A stretch of DNA of 64,000 nt from an uncultured Thiotrichaceae bacterium. Lineage in GTDB: Bacteria > Pseudomonadota > Gammaproteobacteria > Thiotrichales > Thiotrichaceae. The translations under genes were made by a program, and so were the position numbers. This document shows positions 12,979 through 25,346 of the stretch, piece by piece (within the stretch, counting starts at the first letter, position 1; every line of letters begins with the position of its first letter). The DNA is taken from contig CALAMO010000012.1 in the NCBI GenBank assembly GCA_937925855.1, forward strand, positions 1 through 64,000, read 5' to 3'. Under the pieces are notes generated by a model. It worked only from the letters and a program-made list of their open reading frames with translations, was not told the origin of the DNA and did no database searches.

Positions 12979-15684
12979 ATGCACGCCGCAAATTCATATT
13001 ATGTTTCTGGCCTTATTGCTTCGGCTGTTATGTTGCTGGCTGCTGACGTGTGGGCAGTTGAAACCCTGGAGTACACGATCCGCTGGGATACCCGTGATAG
13101 TCGCTACCATGTTTTTATGAAACCCGGTCAGGCACCGACGCCTGATGCCAGCATGACTGGGCAGGTAACGATTAAGGTGCCGCATGGTGTCGGTAGCGAA
13201 ATGTTTCAGATGTCTGGGCTCAATTCTGTGGTTCCCAACGTGAGCTGGGCAGCCAATTCGCGTGCCAACGCTCCTACTGAAGAGCCGACAGCAGATTATA
13301 TCTCATTGAGCCTGACGGTCAGTATGTCTAGTGCTTTTAACTGGCAGGCAGGTACGGAAATTGAGGTGTTTAATTTTTCCAATTCTGGCCCTTGTCGCGG
13401 CCCGGTTTCGCTGATTAACAACATTACAGACCCATTCATTATCCCCGTTAATTCAGGCAATAATAACAGTGCTGGCACGAATCCTGGCAACCAGTTCAGT
13501 AATCTGGGCTGGGCTGATTTTTATGGACAGAATAATTATCTTGGTAACTATGGCCCGGCGGCAGATTGCGCCGACAGTAATGATGATGATAGTGATGGCT
13601 TGATTAATGCGGACGAATTAATAATCGGCTCTGATCCCCTGAATCCTGATACGGATGGCGATGGCGTGCCTGATGGTACTGAGGTCGGGAATGATCCGGT
13701 GAATCCGGTTGATACCGATAGTAACAGTACGCCAGATGTGCTGGATACCGATGATGATGGTGATGGCACGCTGACCTTGCTCGAAGATGCAGATACAGAC
13801 GGTGACGGTAATCCAGCGACAACCCCGACAGATAGCGATGGCGATGGCACGCCGGATTATCTTGATAATAATTCGGATGATGGGCCGCTGGCTGATCCTG
13901 ATGGTGATGGTTTAACGAATGCGGAAGAAGCGACTGCAGGGACAGACCCCAACAATGCGGATAGCGACGGTGATGGCCTTAATGATGGGGTTGAGGCGGG
14001 TATTGGCTCCAGTCCGTTGAATCCTGATACAGATGGTGATGGCGTGCCTGATGGTACCGAGGTCGGGAGTGATCCGGCGAATCCGGTTGACACTGATAGT
14101 AACAGTACGCCAGATGTGCTGGATACCGACGATGATGGTGATGGCACGCTGACCTCGCTAGAAGATGCAGATACGGACAGTGACGGTAATCCGGCGACAA
14201 CCCCGACGGATAGCGATGGCGATGGCACGCCGGATTATCTTGATAATAATTCGGATGACGGGCCGCTGGCTGATCCTGATGCTGATGGCTTGACCAATGC
14301 GGAGGAAGCTGCAGCTGGGACAGATCCAAACGATGCGGATAGTGATAATGATGGTTTGAGTGATGGTGCTGAGGTGAGTGGCGGCACCGATCCGAATGAT
14401 GCTGATAGCGATAATGATGGAGCGAGTGATGCTGCCGAGCTGCTGGGCCCGGATGGTGATGTGACCACCGCTGCTGATAATACGAATCCATTGGATGCTG
14501 ATTCAGACGATGATGGTCTGAATGACGGTGTGGAACTGGTGGGTCTGGATGGCGATCCGGCGACGGCTGCTGATAATACTGATCCGAATAACCCGGATAG
14601 TGATGGTGATGGGCTGCAGGATGGTACTGAGTTAGGCATGACAGTGTCTATTGCTGGTGGGAATAGCGACGGTGTCGCGGCGTTGGCGTTTGTGGGCACG
14701 CTGAGCAGTACTTTTGTGGTTGATACTGACCCGGTGAGTAAGACGGACCCGAATAACCCAGATACTGATGGCGGTGGGGATTGTGATGGTGCGAATGCGG
14801 TGACGAGTGTTTGTATTGCCGGAGAGGATGTGAATAATAATGGCCGCATTGATGCGGATGAGACTGATCCGGCTATAACCATGGATGATTTCAGTCAGGG
14901 TATTCGCTTACAGCTGCGCGTTATACTGCAGGGGCCGTACAACCCAAGCCTGGGTTTGATGGAGGATAAGCTGAGAACAAAAGGTTTCTTGCCGACGGCG
15001 CAACCCTACAGTGCGGCACCGCTAATGTACACGGGTACTGAGCAACTGGGCACTGCGGTATCAAGTGTGGTTGGTAATGATGCCGTCGTTGACTGGGTTT
15101 TGGTTGAGTTACGGGATGCTACTGATGCATCTGTAGTACTTGCGTCTAAAGCGCTGTTAGTGCAGCGTGATGGGGATGTGGTTGATGGTGCTGATGGGTC
15201 GGCGACGTGGCATTTTTCCGGCTTAACGGCGGACAATTATTACGTGGTGCTCAGGCATCGCAATCATCTTGATTTAATGACGGCATCAACGGTGGCGTTA
15301 AGTAGTCTGCCGACCATGATCGATTTCAGCTTGCCAACGACGTTGATTAAGGGGGGCGCTACGACACGCTTTGAGTTAAGTGGTAAAGCCTTGATGTATG
15401 CCGGTGATGCCAACTTTGACCAGCGAGATATTGCGAATGGCCCTAATCAGGACAGTACCTTCCTGATCTCCAGCATATTGCTTTATCCGAGCAACCAGGA
15501 CTTTAATGCTAATTATATTATGGCGGGCTATAGTGCGGCTGATCTGAATTTGGATGGTAATACCATATTTTCTGGCCCCTATAACGATACTAACCTATTG
15601 TTAAGTAATGTATTGTTGCACCCAGGCAATTCGGGCTTCGCGGCTAATTTCATTGTAGATGGTGCGATGAATGCAAATAACTGA
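12979..15684 (+). CDS. Large exported protein with TSP3 repeats and dockerin-like C-terminus
   Basis: A 901-residue secreted protein. Order of parts: signal peptide to Ala26; family N-domain, about 28 to 194, beta-rich, ending in the block [11 protein letters not shown]; a calcium-binding thrombospondin type 3 array, about 195 to 634, made of DxDxDG units such as [14 protein letters not shown]; a beta-rich domain, about 640 to 810, with [10 protein letters not shown] and VVLRHRNHL; then a duplicated EF-hand-like region with GDANFDQRD and ADLNLDGN. The end resembles dockerins with a longer loop, and the last two parts recall large surface proteins of Bacteroidota. No membrane anchor or known sorting tail. 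The array contains an in-frame duplication of 378 bases. Role unknown, probably cell surface or matrix. Confidence 0.8.
13641..14396 (+). repeat. Tandem 378-bp in-frame duplication inside the TSP3 array
   Basis: Two copies start at 13641 and 14019, both with GAATCCTGATAC. They code for 126-residue units, each with about four aspartate-rich loops and a NATTP-like spacer. Similarity is high over most of the unit and fades over the last 50 bases of the second copy. Confidence 0.85.
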
Positions 15685-16766: not shown

Positions 16767-19328
16767 ATGTATGCCTTAAAGCTACATCGTTTTCTTGGTC
16801 TAAGTGCTTTGGCTTATGCGCTGGTTTGTAACAGCGCTTGGGCAGCTGAAACACTTGAATATATGATTCGTTGGGACACGAGCGATAATCGTTATCATGT
16901 CTTTATGAAGCCAAGGGCAACGCCAATTCCTAACGCTAGCATGACGGGACAGTTAACAATTCGGGTGCCGCATGGAACTGGAGCTGACCAGTTTGCGCCA
17001 AACGATATTAGATCGTTAGTAGCGGGTGCCCAATGGGCGCTTAGTTCCCGTAGCAATGCTCCTATTGAAGACCCAGATGTGGATTATATTTCACTCACGC
17101 TCAGTGCAAGTAATACCGGAGCCTTTAACTGGGAAGCCAACAAGGAAATTGAAGTTTTTGATTTTCGTAACGGGGGTAACTGTCTTGGCCCGGTGGCTCT
17201 AGTTGATAATGACACCGATCCGTTTGTTGCTCCAGTTATGTCGGGAGGTAATAATAGCGCTAACACCAATCCGGGTAACCAGTTTAGTAATTTGGGTTGG
17301 TCTGATTATAGCGGTGAGAATAATTATCTAGGCAATTATGGGGATTCGGCTAACTGTATTTATGGCTTAGACAGTGACAACGACGGATTGACTGATGCTG
17401 AGGAAGCGATAATCGGCACTGATCCAAATGATGCTGATAGCGACGGTGATGGTGTGCCGGATGCGGTTGAGGTGGGAAGTGATCCTGCTAACCCGGTAGA
17501 TACCGACAGCGACGGTACGCCCAATGCGCTGGATGTGGATGATGATGGCGATGGTACGCTGACGGCTGCTGAAGACACGGATGCGGATGGTGACGGTAAT
17601 CCAGCGACCGCCCCGGCTGACACAGATGGCGATGGTGTTCCCGACTACTTAGATGATAATTCGGCTGATGGCCCTCTGGCTGATCCCGATGGTGATGGCC
17701 TGACTAACGCAGAAGAAACGAGTGCAGGCACTGATCCGAATGATGCTGATAGCGACGGTGATGGTGTGCCGGATGCGGTTGAGGTGGGAAGTGATCCTGC
17801 TAACCCGGTGGATACCGACAGCGACGGTACGCCCAATGCGCTGGATGTGGATGATGATGGCGATGGTACGCTGACGGCTGCTGAAGACACGGATGCGGAT
17901 GGTGACGGCAATCCATCGACTGCCCCGGCTGACACAGATGGCGATGGTGTTCCCGACTACTTAGATGATAATTCGGCTGATGGCCCTCTGGCTGACCCCG
18001 ATGGTGATGGTCTGACTAACGCAGAAGAAACGACCGTTGGCACTGATCCGAATAATGCCGACAGTGATGGTGATGGGCTCAATGATGGTGCTGAGATTTT
18101 GGCAGGCTCAGATCCGAACAAAGCGGATAGTGATGGTGACGGTTTGAGTGATGGCGCTGAAACGACCGCAGGCACGGATCCGAACAAAGCGGATAGCGAT
18201 GGTGACGGTTTGAGTGACGGCGCTGAAGTGACCACAGGTACGGATCCAAACGATGTGGACAGTGACGGTGATGGCCTCAATGACGGCGCTGAAGTTACCT
18301 TAGGCAGTGATCCGCTAAGTGTGGATTCGGACGCTGACGGCGTGTCGGATGCGGTTGAGGTGGGAAGTGATCCCACTAATCCAGTGGATACGGACGGTAA
18401 TGGTACGCCCGATGTGTTGGATACGGATGATGATGGTGATGGTGTATTGACTGCTAATGAAGCCCCCGATCCTAATGGCGATGGCTTGTCGACTGATGCG
18501 ACAGATACGGACAATGATGGTATTCCAGATTATCTGGATGCGACGCTTAATAAGGTTTCACTGCGCGTCCAGGTTATGCTCCAGGGAGCGTTTGATGAAA
18601 CCAGTAAGCTGATGCGAGATGACTTGCGCAGCGAGGCTCTTCTGCCGATTAAGCAGCCATACGTTAGTATGTTGAGGTACGCACGATATAATTATAAGCA
18701 TTGGAGTGCGTCTATTGACTTTGATGATAACGGACAGGATTCAGTGGTCGATTGGGTACTGGTGCAGCTGCGTTCGACTACAAAAGAAAATATAGTCGCC
18801 ACTTTTGCGGGGCTGGTGCAGCGAGACGGTGACGTTATTGATCCGATGACAGGCAGTCAAACGCTCGAATTACTTGACGTCACTGCTGGTGATTATTTTG
18901 TAAGCGTACATCACCGTAATCATTTGGCGGTTGTCACTCAAGAAGCGGTCGCACTGGGACTGGGTGTGCCGCTGGTCGATTTCACTAAAACCTCTACGGT
19001 AGTACATGGTATAAAGTCTAGAACAGAGTCCTCTGGTGTGGCCTTGCTTTGGTCGGGTAACGCCAATAGTGATGGTAATGTGGTTGCTAATGGGCCAGGT
19101 CAGGATACAGCTGTTTTGTTAAGCAGCGTTCTTTTGGATGGCAGTAACTCGTCGCTCAGTACGAATTATATTCTTCCTGGCTATTATGCAACTGATTTAA
19201 ATATGGATGGTGATACAGTCTTTGCTGGACCAGGGAACGATACTAACCTGTTGCTGCGCAATGTCTTGCTTTATCCAAATAACCTTAGCTTTAGTGCAAA
19301 TTATATTCTGCGGGAGCAATTGCCCTAA
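16767..19328 (+). CDS. Large exported protein with TSP3 repeats and dockerin-like C-terminus (paralogue)
   Basis: An 853-residue sister of the 12979 product with the same plan: signal peptide to Ala27, N-domain about 28 to 195 ending in [14 protein letters not shown]3 array about 199 to 592, beta-rich domain about 595 to 760 with [10 protein letters not shown] and VSVHHRNHL, and a duplicated dockerin-like end with NANSDGN and [18 protein letters not shown]. The C-terminal part opens with the family phrase [18 protein letters not shown]. Its TSP3 array holds a recent 312-bp tandem duplication. No anchor is seen. The function is unknown; calcium-stiffened surface stalk or matrix protein is the natural guess. 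Confidence 0.8.
17415..18038 (+). repeat. Nearly identical 312-bp tandem duplication
   Basis: Copies run 17415-17726 and 17727-18038. They differ at only a few third-codon positions and a handful of others, so this is a recent duplication or one kept alike by gene conversion. Each unit codes for 104 residues of TSP3 loops. A third, diverged start of the unit follows at 18039. Confidence 0.9.
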
Positions 19329-19434: not shown

Positions 19435-21048
19435 ATGAAAAAATCGCTTGCTCATATCGTATCAAAAGGTTTCGTATTGCTAATGCTGGCACAAGCTGGC
19501 GACGCACTGGCTGGTGTAGAATATAAGGTAGGATGGGATGACGTTGATAAACGCTATCGTGTATATCTAAGGCCAACTCTTACACCTGTGCCCGATCTTG
19601 CACTGTCCGCACAGGTCACGCTGCGTATGCCTTATGATTCCGCCAATCGTTTTGTTGTCGACGATTTGGTCAGTGTGAAGGCACCGGGCTTGACTTGGGC
19701 AGCTACCTCCAAAGTGGCCGGTCCTACGGAAGCAACTGATATAGAATATATCTCTTTCACACTAAGCATTTCAGAGCCGCAGGGTTTCAACTTGCAGTCT
19801 GGAGTTGAGCAGGAACTTTTTAGTTTCAAGAATCAAAGTGGTGCATGTCTAGGCGACGTTGAGCTTATAAATAATAAAACGGACCCCTTCAATCAGCCTG
19901 AGGGCGCACCGAAAAACTCAGAGGGTACCAACCCTGGTAATGAGTTCAGTAGTTCTGTCTGGCCCGCAGTGAATGATTTTGTGGGGATCTATGGCGAAGC
20001 GGCAAAGTGTGCACCTACAGCGACCAATAATGATCCGGTTGCTAATAACGATACTGCCAGCGTTGTTGAAGACTCCACAGTTACAGTAAATGTGTTGGCT
20101 AATGATACAGACGCTGATAGCGATACGTTGAGCATCAGTGGCATTACTCAGGGCACTAACGGTACGGTAACGATTGTAGGCACCACGGTGACTTACACTC
20201 CTAATGCGGGTTACACCGGTTCTGATAGTTTTACCTATACCATTTCGGACGGTAAAGGTGGAACCAGTACTGCTACAGTAAATGTAACGGTGACTGCTAA
20301 ATCATCGGGTAGTGATGACAACGATAAAGATGGTTTGACCAATGATCAAGAAAAAGCAATAGGCACCGATCCAAACAATCCTGACACAGATGGTGACGGC
20401 ATTAATGACGGTGATGAGGCTGGCAGTGATCCGACCAAGCCAAGAGATTCGGATGGCGACGGTACCATTGATGCGTTAGATACCGATGATGACAATGACA
20501 CCATTCCTACGGCACAAGAAAATTATAACGGTAATTCACCAGCTGATGATGACACGGATAAGGACGGTATTCCTGATTATCTCGATACCGATGATGATAA
20601 TGACACCGTACCTACAGCGGAAGAAAACTATAACGGCGGTTTGCCGACTGATGATGATACGGATAAGGATGGTATTCGCGATTATCTCGATACCGATGAT
20701 GATGGCGACAGTCTTTTAACCGCCTACGAAAATTATGACGGTGATTCTACGCCGAAGAATGATGACACCGATAAAGACGGTAGGCCTGACTACTTAGATG
20801 CTGATGATGATAATGATGGCCTGTTAACGTCTAATGAAATGCCTGACCCGAATAAAGACGGTAAGCCTGATGATGCGGTTGATTCTGATAATAACGGCGT
20901 GCCGGATTATCTACAGAAGAATACTGGCGTTCCAGGTGCTGGACAGGTGGCTATTCCAACCTTGACCCAGTGGGCGCAAATTTTACTATCGCTGTTACTA
21001 GGTGGATTCGCTTTGCGTCAGTTTATGCAGAGCAAGCGCAACAGTTAA
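19435..21048 (+). CDS. Exported TSP3-repeat protein with IPTL-CTERM sorting signal
   Basis: A 537-residue member of the cluster with a different rear half. Signal peptide to Ala26; family N-domain about 28 to 190; one cadherin/Ig-like beta-sandwich about 195 to 288 of the type found in RTX and biofilm adhesins ([16 protein letters not shown], then [20 protein letters not shown]); TSP3-like DxDxD array about 290 to 503. The C-terminus is IPTLTQW at about 507, a hydrophobic helix and a basic tail QSKRNS: the IPTL-CTERM signal recognised by an exosortase (XrtH type, from memory). It should therefore be processed at the membrane and moved to the surface. No exosortase gene is in the window. Confidence 0.85.
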
Positions 21049-21386: not shown

Positions 21387-21878
21387 ATGAGGTTGTTAAC
21401 AGCTGCGGTACTGGCATTTCTTCTGCTTTTTTCTTCAATAGCATCTGCACAACCTGTGCAGGATTTTTCTTTTAAAGATATTAACGGACGCCAGCACAAG
21501 TTTTCAGATTATAGAGGCCAATGGGTCATCGTTAATTATTGGTCGACCTATTGTGGGCCGTGTATTGCTGAGATTCCAGCGCTACGACGTGTTGCACATC
21601 ATTATAGGGGTAAGGTTGCTGTACTGGGCATGGATGCTGGTGAAACGCCTGACCATGAAATGCGTAAGTTTATTCAACAGCGTCGCATTAATTATACCGT
21701 TGTACCAACGCAAGATAGCTCAATGTTTGCCTTAGGCCTTATTTACGGCGTGCCGACCACGTTCATCGTTTCGCCGCAAGGTCAAATTGTGCATTCACAC
21801 ATGGGAGTGATCAGCGTGCAGCAAATGCAGCGCTTCATCGGCGCTCCGCCGCGGCGTCAGCAGCCCAGAAGCCAGTAG
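21387..21878 (+). CDS. TlpA-like periplasmic thioredoxin
   Basis: A 163-residue TlpA/ResA-type protein. A signal peptide covers residues 1 to 21. The redox motif is Cys56-Gly-Pro-Cys59 in NYWSTYCGPC, followed by the cis-proline loop GVPTTFIV. Such proteins reduce disulfides in the periplasm, often for cytochrome c maturation or stress defence. The C-terminus ends in a basic, Pro- and Arg-rich tail (PPRRQQPRSQ) that is not part of the fold. It is a single gene, convergent with the LysM lipoprotein gene, with a shared terminator between. Confidence 0.88.
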   Translation: MRLLTAAVLAFLLLFSSIASAQPVQDFSFKDINGRQHKFSDYRGQWVIVNYWSTYCGPCIAEIPALRRVAHHYRGKVAVLGMDAGETPDHEMRKFIQQRRINYTVVPTQDSSMFALGLIYGVPTTFIVSPQGQIVHSHMGVISVQQMQRFIGAPPRRQQPRSQ

Positions 21879-21960
21879 AGTAGGCTCCAAACTCCCTAGG
21901 CCATGCACCTTGCGTTATGCATCTGCCTGCCTGCGTTACTCCGTTATATCGGTAGCCCTA

Positions 21961-22000
21961 TCCATAAAAAAACCCGTCTTAGGACGGGTTTTTTTATGGA
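21961..22000. terminator. Bidirectional terminator between convergent genes
   Basis: A perfect 18-bp inverted repeat around the loop TTAG: each arm carries ACCCGTC or GACGGGT flanked by seven A or seven T. It serves both the TlpA-like gene on the plus strand and the LysM lipoprotein gene on the minus strand. Confidence 0.95.
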
Positions 22001-22019
22001 TAAAATATCGCGGTTGCGC

Positions 22020-23282
22020 TTAGCGTAACTGTAGGCGCTGACCGGGGACTATTTGATAGTTAGGTGCCTTCAGGTTATTGATACGAATAATATCCTTCCA
22101 GTAAACGCCGGTATTACGCATCACTTGGAACACCGTATCACCGCGCTGTACGACATAAGCATCGCCGCCTGAGTAATTATTGGGTGCAAAGCTGCCGTTC
22201 CCGCCTGTGTTTGTGTTACTGGCTGCATTATTGTTACCGCTGGAGTTGCTGGAGCTTGGCGCACTGAAGTCATAATTGGTGCCATAGTTCTGCGGCTTCG
22301 GGCGAACATTGGGATAGTAGGTGCTGTTGTTACCTGCTGAGCTATAGTCGTAGTAACTATTATTGCCCGTGTTGTTCGTTCCCGTGCCCGCCGTATTATT
22401 GGCGCTGTAGTCGTAGTAGTTGTTGCCTGCTACGTTGTTGGTGTTATTGGGTACGGTATTGTTGACATTGGGGTTTGTACCGTGTGTGTGATTGATGCCA
22501 GTTGCAGGCAGGCGATGTGAATGTGTTCTGCCATTATGATTGTGCGCTACGCCGCCGCTATTGTTGCCTGTCGATGGCTGATTGGCATTAGCGCTTGAGT
22601 TATGACCGTGATTTAAGCCGGTCTGCGGCAAGGCATGAGAATGTACTCTGCCATTGTGTGAGTGCGCATTGGGATCATTGCTGGTATTGCCGGCATTGTT
22701 TCCATTGGCGACGGGCGTATTGGCGTTGGTACCGCCGATGCTGTGGGTATGGTTCAAGCCGGTTGCAGGCAGTCTGTGACTATGGACTTTGCCACTGTGT
22801 GAATGCGCTGTGCCCTCACCCGTTGGCTGATTCGGGGCAACAGTGTTTGTATTGCCTGCGCCGTGGGTATGGTTAATGCCAGTCGCCGGTAGATTATGAG
22901 AGTGCACTCGACCACTGTGCGAGTGTGCATTGGCGCCACCGGTAGTGTTGGTGTTGGTTGCGCCACCGCCGACCCGGTGTGTGTGGTTAATACCCTCAGC
23001 CGGTAATTTATGAGTGTGCACCTTGCCGCTATGCGAATGTGTCATGCCGTCACCGCCGCCCATTGAAACGGTATTTGTGCCATTATTCATCATACCAGTG
23101 CTGTGTGTATGGTTGATGCCGGTTGCTGGCAGCATATGCGAATGCACTTTGCCGCTGTGTGAATGCGTCACTGGGGCTACTGTGCCCGTATTGCCCATCG
23201 GTACATTTGGAGGAACAGTACACGCAGCGGTTGTGAGAGCCGCAACTGAAGTTGCAGCCAGTAATTTGATTTTTCTATCCAT
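22020..23282 (-). CDS. Histidine-rich LysM lipoprotein in the nlpD position
   Basis: A 420-residue lipoprotein. The lipobox TAAC puts the lipidated Cys at position 20. Residues about 38 to 270 hold six units of the form SHSGKVHSHxLPATGINHTH, spaced by Asn-, Thr- and Gly-rich linkers; each unit has six or seven His. A Tyr- and Asn-rich stretch follows, and the last 45 residues are one LysM domain (YVVQRGDTVFQVM to PGQRLQLR) that binds peptidoglycan. It is the last gene of surE-pcm-yqaA, where nlpD usually stands; the LysM resembles that of NlpD, but the M23/LytM domain is absent and rpoS does not follow. The His repeats suggest binding of zinc, nickel or copper (inference). Confidence 0.85.
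   Translation of the reverse strand: MDRKIKLLAATSVAALTTAACTVPPNVPMGNTGTVAPVTHSHSGKVHSHMLPATGINHTHSTGMMNNGTNTVSMGGGDGMTHSHSGKVHTHKLPAEGINHTHRVGGGATNTNTTGGANAHSHSGRVHSHNLPATGINHTHGAGNTNTVAPNQPTGEGTAHSHSGKVHSHRLPATGLNHTHSIGGTNANTPVANGNNAGNTSNDPNAHSHNGRVHSHALPQTGLNHGHNSSANANQPSTGNNSGGVAHNHNGRTHSHRLPATGINHTHGTNPNVNNTVPNNTNNVAGNNYYDYSANNTAGTGTNNTGNNSYYDYSSAGNNSTYYPNVRPKPQNYGTNYDFSAPSSSNSSGNNNAASNTNTGGNGSFAPNNYSGGDAYVVQRGDTVFQVMRNTGVYWKDIIRINNLKAPNYQIVPGQRLQLR
22478..23172 (-). repeat. Six histidine-rich coding repeats
   Basis: Six in-frame copies of a 20-residue unit, alternating with spacers of variable length. Units differ at few positions (Lys or Arg in GKVHSH, Thr or Gln in LPATG, Ile or Leu before NHTH). 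DNA between units is not conserved, so selection seems to act on the His pattern. Confidence 0.85.
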
Positions 23283-23285
23283 GAG

Positions 23286-23864
23286 TTACACCTGTGTCAT
23301 TAATATAATCAAAATGAGCGCTCCAACAACAATCCAGCCTAGCCATTCGATGTAACGGATAATCATCGGTTCCATCTTGGGGCCCGACCAGGCAAGCAAT
23401 GCAGATACGGTAAAAAAACGCGCTCCTCGCCCGATAATGGATGCAAATATGAATGGAATCAATGCCATAGATAATGCACCCCCGGTAATGGTAAAAACTT
23501 TATAGGGGATGGGAGAGAAGCCGGCAGCAAAAATAATCCAGATTCCCCATGCTTCAAACAGGTGTTTGGCCTGTTCTAATTTCGCCCCATATCCCCATTG
23601 TACAATTAATGGCTGTAAAGTTTCAAAGGCAAAATATCCTATAAAATAACCTGTTATGCCACCAAGTACAGAAGTTACTGTAGTTAACGTCGCTAAATAA
23701 AGCCAGCTTTTTGGTTTTGCCAGTACCATGGGCATTAGCATAATGTCCGGCGGAATAGGGAAGAACGAAGATTCCGCAGCACTTAGAACACCCAAATAGC
23801 GTGGTGCCTTAGGATGAGCTGCCCAGCTAAGGACTTTGTTGTAAAATGAGGAGAAAAGTTTCAT
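23286..23864 (-). CDS. YqaA/DedA-type inner membrane protein
   Basis: A 192-residue membrane protein of the YqaA group in the DedA/SNARE-associated superfamily. The re-entrant segment ESSFFPIPPDIMLMPM lies near residue 31, and the second family block GFSPIPYKVFTITGGAL near 115. About four to five hydrophobic segments are visible. DedA relatives flip polyprenyl phosphate or phospholipids, but for YqaA itself the substrate is unknown. It lies between pcm and the LysM lipoprotein gene, three bases from the latter; this order is common in gammaproteobacteria. No clear ribosome-binding site precedes its ATG. Confidence 0.85.
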   Translation of the reverse strand: MKLFSSFYNKVLSWAAHPKAPRYLGVLSAAESSFFPIPPDIMLMPMVLAKPKSWLYLATLTTVTSVLGGITGYFIGYFAFETLQPLIVQWGYGAKLEQAKHLFEAWGIWIIFAAGFSPIPYKVFTITGGALSMALIPFIFASIIGRGARFFTVSALLAWSGPKMEPMIIRYIEWLGWIVVGALILIILMTQV

Positions 23865-23896: not shown

Positions 23897-24541
23897 TTAG
23901 GGGTTGGTGTCGCTTACCAAGGGAACAAACTGCACGGACTCTATGATTTCGGTTTTGTATTCAGTCTCACTGAGGCGGGTCATCATGCGCAGCTCTTGCT
24001 GTTGGTTTTGGGCGCCGGTTGGTATAATTAGCCGTGCGCCAATGGCCAGCTGTCCAGGCAAAGCCTGTGGAATGCTCTCTGGGGCAGCGGTCACGATGAT
24101 GCCATCAAAAGGGGCTTCCGGTTCTAGTCCCCAACTGCCGTCACTCAGTCGACAATGAATATTGCGGTAATCAAGCGCATACAGTAGCTCACGGGTATGT
24201 AGGTAAAGCGTTTCTATGCGCTCGACGGTGTATAATTTTTTAACAAATGGGGCGAGTACTGCGGCCTGATAACCTGAGCCGGTACCGACTTCTAGGACTC
24301 TTTCCAGGGGGTACTCACTCGCCAGCAGCAGCTCAGTCATGCGTGCGACGATATAGGGCTGAGAAATAGTCTGGCCGTGCCCAATAGGGAGGGCGGTGTC
24401 TTCATAAGAGCGGCTGGCCAGTGCTTCATCCATAAATAGATGGCGTGGTACTTTACTCATGATGCGCAGCACGTCTTCATGGGCGATGTTTTTCACTCGC
24501 AGCCGTTCGATTAGACGATTGCGTGTGCGCTGTGAAGTCAT
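23897..24541 (-). CDS. pcm: Protein-L-isoaspartate O-methyltransferase
   Basis: Repairs damaged proteins by methylating L-isoaspartyl residues with S-adenosylmethionine. The SAM motif is VLEVGTGSGYQAAVLA; the active-site region GHGQTISQPYIVARMTELL is complete. The start at 24541 (MTSQRTRNRL) is chosen because this opening is nearly that of Pseudomonas Pcm; the open frame runs much further upstream, but only as a shadow of surE. This gives 214 residues, the usual size. It lies 31 bases after surE, the standard pairing. Confidence 0.95.
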   Translation of the reverse strand: MTSQRTRNRLIERLRVKNIAHEDVLRIMSKVPRHLFMDEALASRSYEDTALPIGHGQTISQPYIVARMTELLLASEYPLERVLEVGTGSGYQAAVLAPFVKKLYTVERIETLYLHTRELLYALDYRNIHCRLSDGSWGLEPEAPFDGIIVTAAPESIPQALPGQLAIGARLIIPTGAQNQQQELRMMTRLSETEYKTEIIESVQFVPLVSDTNP

Positions 24542-24572: not shown

Positions 24573-25346
24573 TTACGTCTGACCAAGGTCAGCTCCTTGT
24601 AACCATTGTGAGGTATTGTCCAGTTGCTGATAGCGCGTGAGATCGGTATGCAGTGGGGTGACGGTGATATAGCCTTGTGCCAGTGCATGAAAATCGGTGC
24701 CCTCACCGGCATCTGCGGCAGCGGGCGCTGGGCCCAGCCAGAAAATAGTGCGGCCACGCGGATCAGTTTCCTGCACCATCGCTTTAGTGCTATCGCGGCG
24801 GCCAAGACGGCAGACCTTGAAGCCTTTAATGGCTTCTGGTGGCAGGCTGGGGACATTAACATTTAGCACCAGATTTTCGTGGCGTGCTGGAAAGGTCTCG
24901 ATGCGGGCGAGGAGTAATTGCACTGCTTGGACCGCTGATTCTATATGGTCTTGCGTGTGAGATGAGGTGGAAATCGCCAGCGTAGTGTGCTTAGCAAAGC
25001 GCCCTTCCATCGCGGCGGCAACAGTGCCGGAGTAAAGCACATCATCGCCCAAATTCGGGCCGTTGTTGATGCCAGAGATAATAATATCGGGGTTGAGGTG
25101 CAGTCCGGCTAGCCCCAGATAAACACAGTCAGTGGGCGTGCCATTAACACTGTAAACCTTTGAGTGGTTGGCACCGGAGTGTTGACGTGCGCTGAGCGGT
25201 CTGTCCAGGGTGAGTGAATTACTCGCACCGCTGCGGTCACGCTCGGGTGCGACTGTGGTAATATGGTGGTCGCTGCTGAGCGCTTGTTGTAAGGCACAGA
25301 GGCCGGGTGCCTGATAGCCATCGTCATTGCTGAGCAATATATTCAT
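24573..25346 (-). CDS. surE: 5'/3'-nucleotidase (survival protein SurE)
   Basis: A divalent-metal nucleotidase that dephosphorylates nucleoside monophosphates and short polyphosphates in stationary phase. The N-terminus MNILLSNDDGYQAPG has the metal-binding Asp pair, and SGINNGPNLGDDVLYSGTVAAA matches the family core. The 257 residues are normal. It heads a minus-strand unit surE-pcm-yqaA-LysM lipoprotein and is divergent from the Smr gene, with only about 40 bases between start codons. Confidence 0.96.
   Translation of the reverse strand: MNILLSNDDGYQAPGLCALQQALSSDHHITTVAPERDRSGASNSLTLDRPLSARQHSGANHSKVYSVNGTPTDCVYLGLAGLHLNPDIIISGINNGPNLGDDVLYSGTVAAAMEGRFAKHTTLAISTSSHTQDHIESAVQAVQLLLARIETFPARHENLVLNVNVPSLPPEAIKGFKVCRLGRRDSTKAMVQETDPRGRTIFWLGPAPAAADAGEGTDFHALAQGYITVTPLHTDLTRYQQLDNTSQWLQGADLGQT

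Follow-up and report, generated by a model that had tools for sequence, protein, structure and literature searches.

E. coli relies on two LytM activators, one of them NlpD, to separate its daughter cells, and cells without both NlpD and EnvC form long chains. NlpD and ActS are both amidase activators. A truncated E. coli protein, NlpD(1-189), localises to midcell and does not support cell separation (PMC5533458). The organisms of the order Thiotrichales are filamentous, sheathed, rosette-forming sulfur bacteria (PMC8570282). Cable bacteria, which are filamentous too, were reported to keep nlpD and amiC (PMC7873302), so filaments can form without a loss of NlpD. For the multicellular Neisseriaceae, an additional amidase, amiC2, is the change that was reported (PMC9395523). 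Among the streptococcal Pht proteins, PhtD was reported to bind zinc (PMC3842936).

We analysed a window of 64,000 nucleotides (the whole stretch of Thiotrichaceae DNA under study), in which the place of nlpD is taken by a LysM protein gene whose 420-residue product lacks LytM (Table 1). Literature searches found no paper on this protein. The preliminary description had placed a LysM lipoprotein after surE, pcm and yqaA, and all three genes indeed lie directly upstream on the same strand: only 3 nt separate the yqaA stop from the start of the LysM gene, with an AGGTG 7 nt ahead of its ATG. From the N-terminus, the protein consists of a putative lipoprotein signal, six 24-residue His units, a low-complexity linker rich in N, S, G, T and Y in which YYDYS recurs, and LysM. 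The LysM match cleared the Pfam cut-off of 20.9 bits (E=1.2e-9). The stop codon falls one residue past LysM, and neither the Pfam search nor the reading of the ORF gave an M23/LytM match after it, in agreement with the earlier reading that the protein ends there without LytM. A split or frameshifted nlpD with its LytM part downstream was ruled out because the next gene is a convergent thioredoxin-like one; the earlier statement that rpoS is not the next gene therefore also held. A repeat or assembly artefact was discarded because independent assemblies of relatives carry the gene with 1–4 units. An origin from a mobile element or plasmid was rejected, as the protein had no plasmid match and a three-unit stretch had no phage match.

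Table 1. Features of the LysM lipoprotein locus (window positions).
Feature	Position	Strand	Basis
LysM lipoprotein gene, 420 aa, LytM-less occupant of the nlpD position	22020..23282	-	ORF, Pfam and locus comparison
Putative lipoprotein signal peptide, residues 1-20, MDRKIKLLAATSVAALTTAA	23223..23282	-	sequence
Cys21, predicted lipidation site	23220..23222	-	sequence
His unit 1, residues 38-61, VTHSHSGKVHSHMLPATGINHTHS	23100..23171	-	repeat and shuffle analysis
His unit 2, residues 80-103, MTHSHSGKVHTHKLPAEGINHTHR	22974..23045	-	repeat and shuffle analysis
His unit 3, residues 118-141, NAHSHSGRVHSHNLPATGINHTHG	22860..22931	-	repeat and shuffle analysis
His unit 4, residues 158-181, TAHSHSGKVHSHRLPATGLNHTHS	22740..22811	-	repeat and shuffle analysis
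His unit 5, residues 205-228, NAHSHNGRVHSHALPQTGLNHGHN	22599..22670	-	repeat and shuffle analysis
His unit 6, residues 245-268, VAHNHNGRTHSHRLPATGINHTHG	22479..22550	-	repeat and shuffle analysis
N/S/G/Y-rich linker with YYDYS motifs, predicted disordered	22158..22454	-	composition and AlphaFold2
LysM domain, residues 376-419	22026..22157	-	PF01476 38.3 bits; AlphaFold2 pLDDT ~94
yqaA-like VTT-domain membrane protein, same operon	23286..23864	-	Pfam PF09335
pcm, protein-L-isoaspartate O-methyltransferase	23897..24541	-	Pfam/NCBIfam
surE, 5'/3'-nucleotidase	24573..25346	-	Pfam/NCBIfam
TlpA/AhpC-TSA-type exported thioredoxin, convergent; neighbour conserved in most of the order	21387..21878	+	Pfam and locus comparison
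19-bp perfect inverted repeat, loop TTAG, A/T runs on both sides	21960..22001	.	read in sequence; unlisted by the consensus scan

The putative lipobox, T-A-A-C, is weak at -3, and Cys21 is invariant among the aligned relatives. Relatives identified through the aligned proteins were Thiothrix, Thiofilum, Thiolinea disciformis, Leucothrix, Cocleimonas and Thiotrichaceae bins, and we place the window's genome (genus g1) in the Thiothrix/Thiolinea group of Thiotrichales. Under the E. coli +2 rule, a residue other than Asp at +2 leads to outer membrane sorting. Residue +2 of the predicted mature lipoprotein is Thr, not Asp, so an outer membrane location is predicted. AlphaFold2 modelled LysM with confidence and left the remaining chain disordered, except for short hairpins in units 1 and 4. 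The protein is very probably a peptidoglycan-bound lipoprotein. Because LytM is absent, amidase activation by the known route is excluded, and very likely the protein does not activate amidases at all. Between the gene and its convergent neighbour, the inverted repeat is, from its sequence, likely a bidirectional terminator. Three large proteins with TSP3-type repeats are encoded nearby (window 12979-15684, 16767-19328 and 19435-21048, plus strand); the last additionally carries a Big_9 domain and an IPTL-CTERM sorting motif.

We compared the surE-pcm locus across the order and with other gammaproteobacterial orders. Among 36 loci around the long LysM protein of the order, 29 lie beside pcm, 2 are cut by contig ends and 5 lie elsewhere. 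Of these five, four belong to genus g3; the other one, in g6, starts at 1.7 kb from the end of its contig. In five g3 genomes, the surE-pcm locus holds a shorter LysM lipoprotein (117–155 aa) without His units, followed by the same thioredoxin-like gene where the sequence reaches. Thus, in 35 of 35 resolved loci of the order (the 29, the 5 of g3 and the window), the last gene encodes a LysM lipoprotein without LytM. In the comparison set of 20 loci from other orders, picked by YqaA similarity, 16 read surE-pcm-yqaA-nlpD(LysM+LytM)-rpoS; the E. coli locus is surE-pcm-nlpD-rpoS, without yqaA. Differing surE neighbours in relatives, together with a LysM that groups with unrelated families, had been named beforehand as a result that would speak against nlpD. 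For the neighbours, all resolved loci of the order count against such a refutation; for the LysM, an alignment of 45 columns is too short to decide. The order formed one clade in a SurE-Pcm-YqaA tree (SH-aLRT 100), and a single ancestral loss of LytM therefore suffices. At L075:1697-3201, a pair of LysM lipoproteins is encoded in tandem, one of them with a single His unit and the other with two. Instead of His units, QQWYIDxxNRxQ-type repeats occupy the linker in three genera, namely Leucothrix, Cocleimonas and a third one (L058, L059, L062-L064, L068, L076-L078). Candidatus Thiothrix singaporensis has a 184-residue open frame with this LysM at its start and a SPOR-like end (L263:1550-2101), and a TAA lies just upstream of it.

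The preliminary description had also called for a search for a second, full nlpD and for rpoS elsewhere in the genome. No second NlpD was found: the M23 proteins of the genome, of the EnvC-like and MepM-like kinds plus a small one, all lack LysM, and the candidate was ruled out. An M23 protein with LysM was likewise absent from both strands of four single-contig genomes of g8 (Thiothrix-type). The NlpD family model had no match above its cut-off in any of the 63 genomes of the order, where its best matches were EnvC-like proteins. Exactly one Amidase_3 protein per genome was found in the 8 genomes tested, and that of the window's genome bears its own LysM. The rpoS gene was located on contig C6, above the cut-off of its model, flanked by a DUF498 gene and hom-thrC. 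This neighbourhood of rpoS was noted at L039:9083-10093. At one locus of another order (L205), a DUF498-like protein is encoded directly after yqaA, followed by an aminotransferase gene, hom and thrC.

Is the gene a descendant of nlpD or a replacement? The top NCBIfam scores of the window LysM were those of ActS (31.8 bits) and NlpD (25.0), ahead of MltD (15.9). In LysM trees of 45 columns, the LysMs of the order fell next to NlpD LysMs with weak support, and an AU test did not reject a grouping with other LysMs (p 0.22). Two attempts to use LysM phylogeny as proof of descent were thus indecisive, and descent from nlpD rests mainly on position and architecture. A near-identical LysM is carried by the SLT-LysM lytic transglycosylases of the order, which share the signature GDTVYEVMRQTGV..IIRLN, and a replacement by a copy from the transglycosylase is therefore possible. 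Under a replacement, the ancestor of the order would have lost nlpD and rpoS from the locus, and the vacant place would have gone to an unrelated LysM lipoprotein that took its LysM from the order's own SLT enzyme. The presence of rpoS elsewhere in the genome, the shared signature and the AU result are all compatible with these events. However, gene position, orientation, lipoprotein start and the architecture of the N-terminal half are all as in NlpD, the best-scoring models are ActS and NlpD, and in an 80-row LysM tree the lipoprotein LysMs enclose those of the SLT enzymes, so that the copy may have gone from lipoprotein to SLT. We consider replacement doubtful and infer that the gene is probably an nlpD descendant. 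The near identity between the C-terminal LysM of the lytic transglycosylases (L246-L257, L264, L265) and the lipoprotein LysM suggests within-order domain transfer; the L264 enzyme has two LysM domains.

The His units follow the pattern HxH-x4-HxH-x-LP-x2-G-x2-HxH, with the consensus VTHSHxGxVHxHxLPAxGLxHTHx. The preliminary description had counted six units and about 40 His. Six units there are, and the His total is 36, every one of them inside a unit. None of 20,000 residue shuffles of the protein yielded even one unit, and an independent DNA repeat search recovered six 69-nt copies with 64–83% identity to the reference copy. Across 31 units, the six His and the L, P and G were invariant. 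In the six window units, His is encoded by 18 CAT and 18 CAC codons; at the nine anchor positions, pS was 0.99 and pN 0 (pN/pS 0), while the non-anchor columns gave a pN/pS of 0.49. Since synonymous change is saturated at the anchors and pN is 0, the units are old and strictly constrained.

We then asked where the unit occurs. A unit profile matched 47 of the 63 genomes of the order. Among 185 genomes of the class, no genome outside the order was matched, the two hits being the window's genome and another member of its genus. In a phylum sample, the remaining 397 genomes gave no match either. The number of units per LysM protein ranged from 0 (Leucothrix, Cocleimonas and a third genus) through 1 (g8) to 6 in the window, the most among the sampled relatives. 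Unrelated exported proteins also have the unit, at their mature N-terminus just behind the signal peptide: one with Sel1 repeats and a family that no Pfam model matches. The exported Sel1-repeat protein (L289:1405-2775) has one His unit at this place. Members of the Pfam-less exported family have NCxxC near the middle and one or two units (L006:1282-2916 on contig C52 of the window's own genome, L290, L303). No Pfam or NCBIfam model covers the units, and a PDB sequence search with the window protein matched LysM only. Judged from sequence, the unit is a separate short module, confined to the order in the genomes sampled and without prior description.

AlphaFold2 placed a short HxH-turn-HxH hairpin in units 1 and 4 of the full protein, and the hairpin recurred with modest confidence in a run of 36 residues. 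Because its two strands are adjacent, four His would face one side. From this predicted hairpin and the constraint on the unit, we think it reasonably probable that the units bind a divalent metal (Zn, Cu or Ni). The unit might instead be primarily an interaction tag for sheath polysaccharide, sulfur globules or another protein. Its place right behind the signal peptide of unrelated exported proteins, the invariance of L, P and G besides His, the Y/N/G-rich linkers and the filamentous, sheathed habit of the order (PMC8570282) would all fit a tag. Six strictly kept His in HxH pairs have the usual look of a metal site, however, and no partner for such a tag is known; we regard it as an unlikely alternative to metal binding.

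The preliminary description had proposed that the gene may have become an envelope protein tied to peptidoglycan that buffers or senses metal; in this reading, the core function would lie in the His units. The 36 fully constrained His with saturated synonymous change, the four His set on one face by the beta geometry of the HxH-HxH hairpin and the top unit number of the window protein among sampled relatives agree with this proposal. Across the order, however, the protein has 0 to 6 units, and they are missing from the gene in three genera and from the g3 locus copy. The same units are present on Sel1 and other unrelated exported proteins, which argues for a general module. Metal buffering is thus not the common thread. 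We saw no metal transporter or regulator genes among the immediate neighbours. The His units do not define the gene; in this form the proposal was not supported, and metal buffering as the main role appears improbable. The idea of a decayed remnant, a truncated and functionless nlpD with freely expanding repeats, would explain why repeat number and linker differ widely among relatives, but it is hardly credible given that different genera share an unchanged Cys21 and many unchanged LysM positions, the reading frame is open in all proteins read and pN/pS is 0 at the unit anchors.

Taken together, these results suggest that nlpD at the locus of the order was reduced to its anchor and wall-binding part, a gene repurposed across the whole order. 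The full explanation that we favour, on balance, is that the gene is a Thiotrichales nlpD descendant whose LytM half and rpoS linkage were lost once, before the order diversified, leaving a docking lipoprotein with a stalk of His units. The product would be a lipoprotein of the outer membrane that carries its LysM on a long disordered stalk and binds peptidoglycan through it, probably where cells divide. With amidase activation through LytM gone, the cells would depend for their separation on the EnvC-like protein that remains and on their one Amidase_3 enzyme. The stalk would evolve freely, and the order-specific His unit would have been picked up there; each unit would fold two HxH motifs into a short beta-hairpin, with a third HxH besides, and may bind a divalent metal, so that the stalk would gain a module probably for metal binding or interaction. 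That LytM loss is linked to filament formation is put forward as a hypothesis only. A further-reaching version, which we think quite unlikely, is that an early cut of nlpD to its septal-docking half removed the LytM switch and helped daughter cells to stay attached, and that the six-His module later spread over envelope proteins as a metal-dependent clamp or tag holding the filament envelope. A filament-forming order with the docking half alone at the NlpD locus is a clean, testable case of altered cell separation in a multicellular lineage.

How does this protein compare with described ones? Like NlpD of E. coli and Xanthomonas, it is a predicted lipoprotein with a disordered N-terminal linker and a LysM, here one that scores best against ActS and NlpD, encoded right after surE-pcm-(yqaA). 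Unlike NlpD, it lacks LytM, has no rpoS after it, and its LysM is shifted to the extreme C-terminus by the long repeat-bearing linker. E. coli NlpD(1-189) is likewise a lipoprotein with LysM and without LytM (PMC5533458). That truncation was made in the laboratory, whereas a whole order has the same arrangement naturally; selection can thus maintain LytM-less LysM lipoproteins in their own right. The SLT-LysM lytic transglycosylase of the order has a LysM nearly equal in sequence to that of the window protein, but it has a transglycosylase domain, lacks a lipobox and is encoded at another locus. In streptococcal Pht proteins, the motif is HxxHxH within a folded domain, whereas the window unit is the longer pattern HxH-x4-HxH-x-LP-x2-G-x2-HxH. 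The unit is a short exported module under unusually strict constraint, order-confined in the genomes sampled, that can be assayed as a synthetic peptide. Pht and the window protein are alike in being exported proteins with repeated His motifs (PMC3842936).
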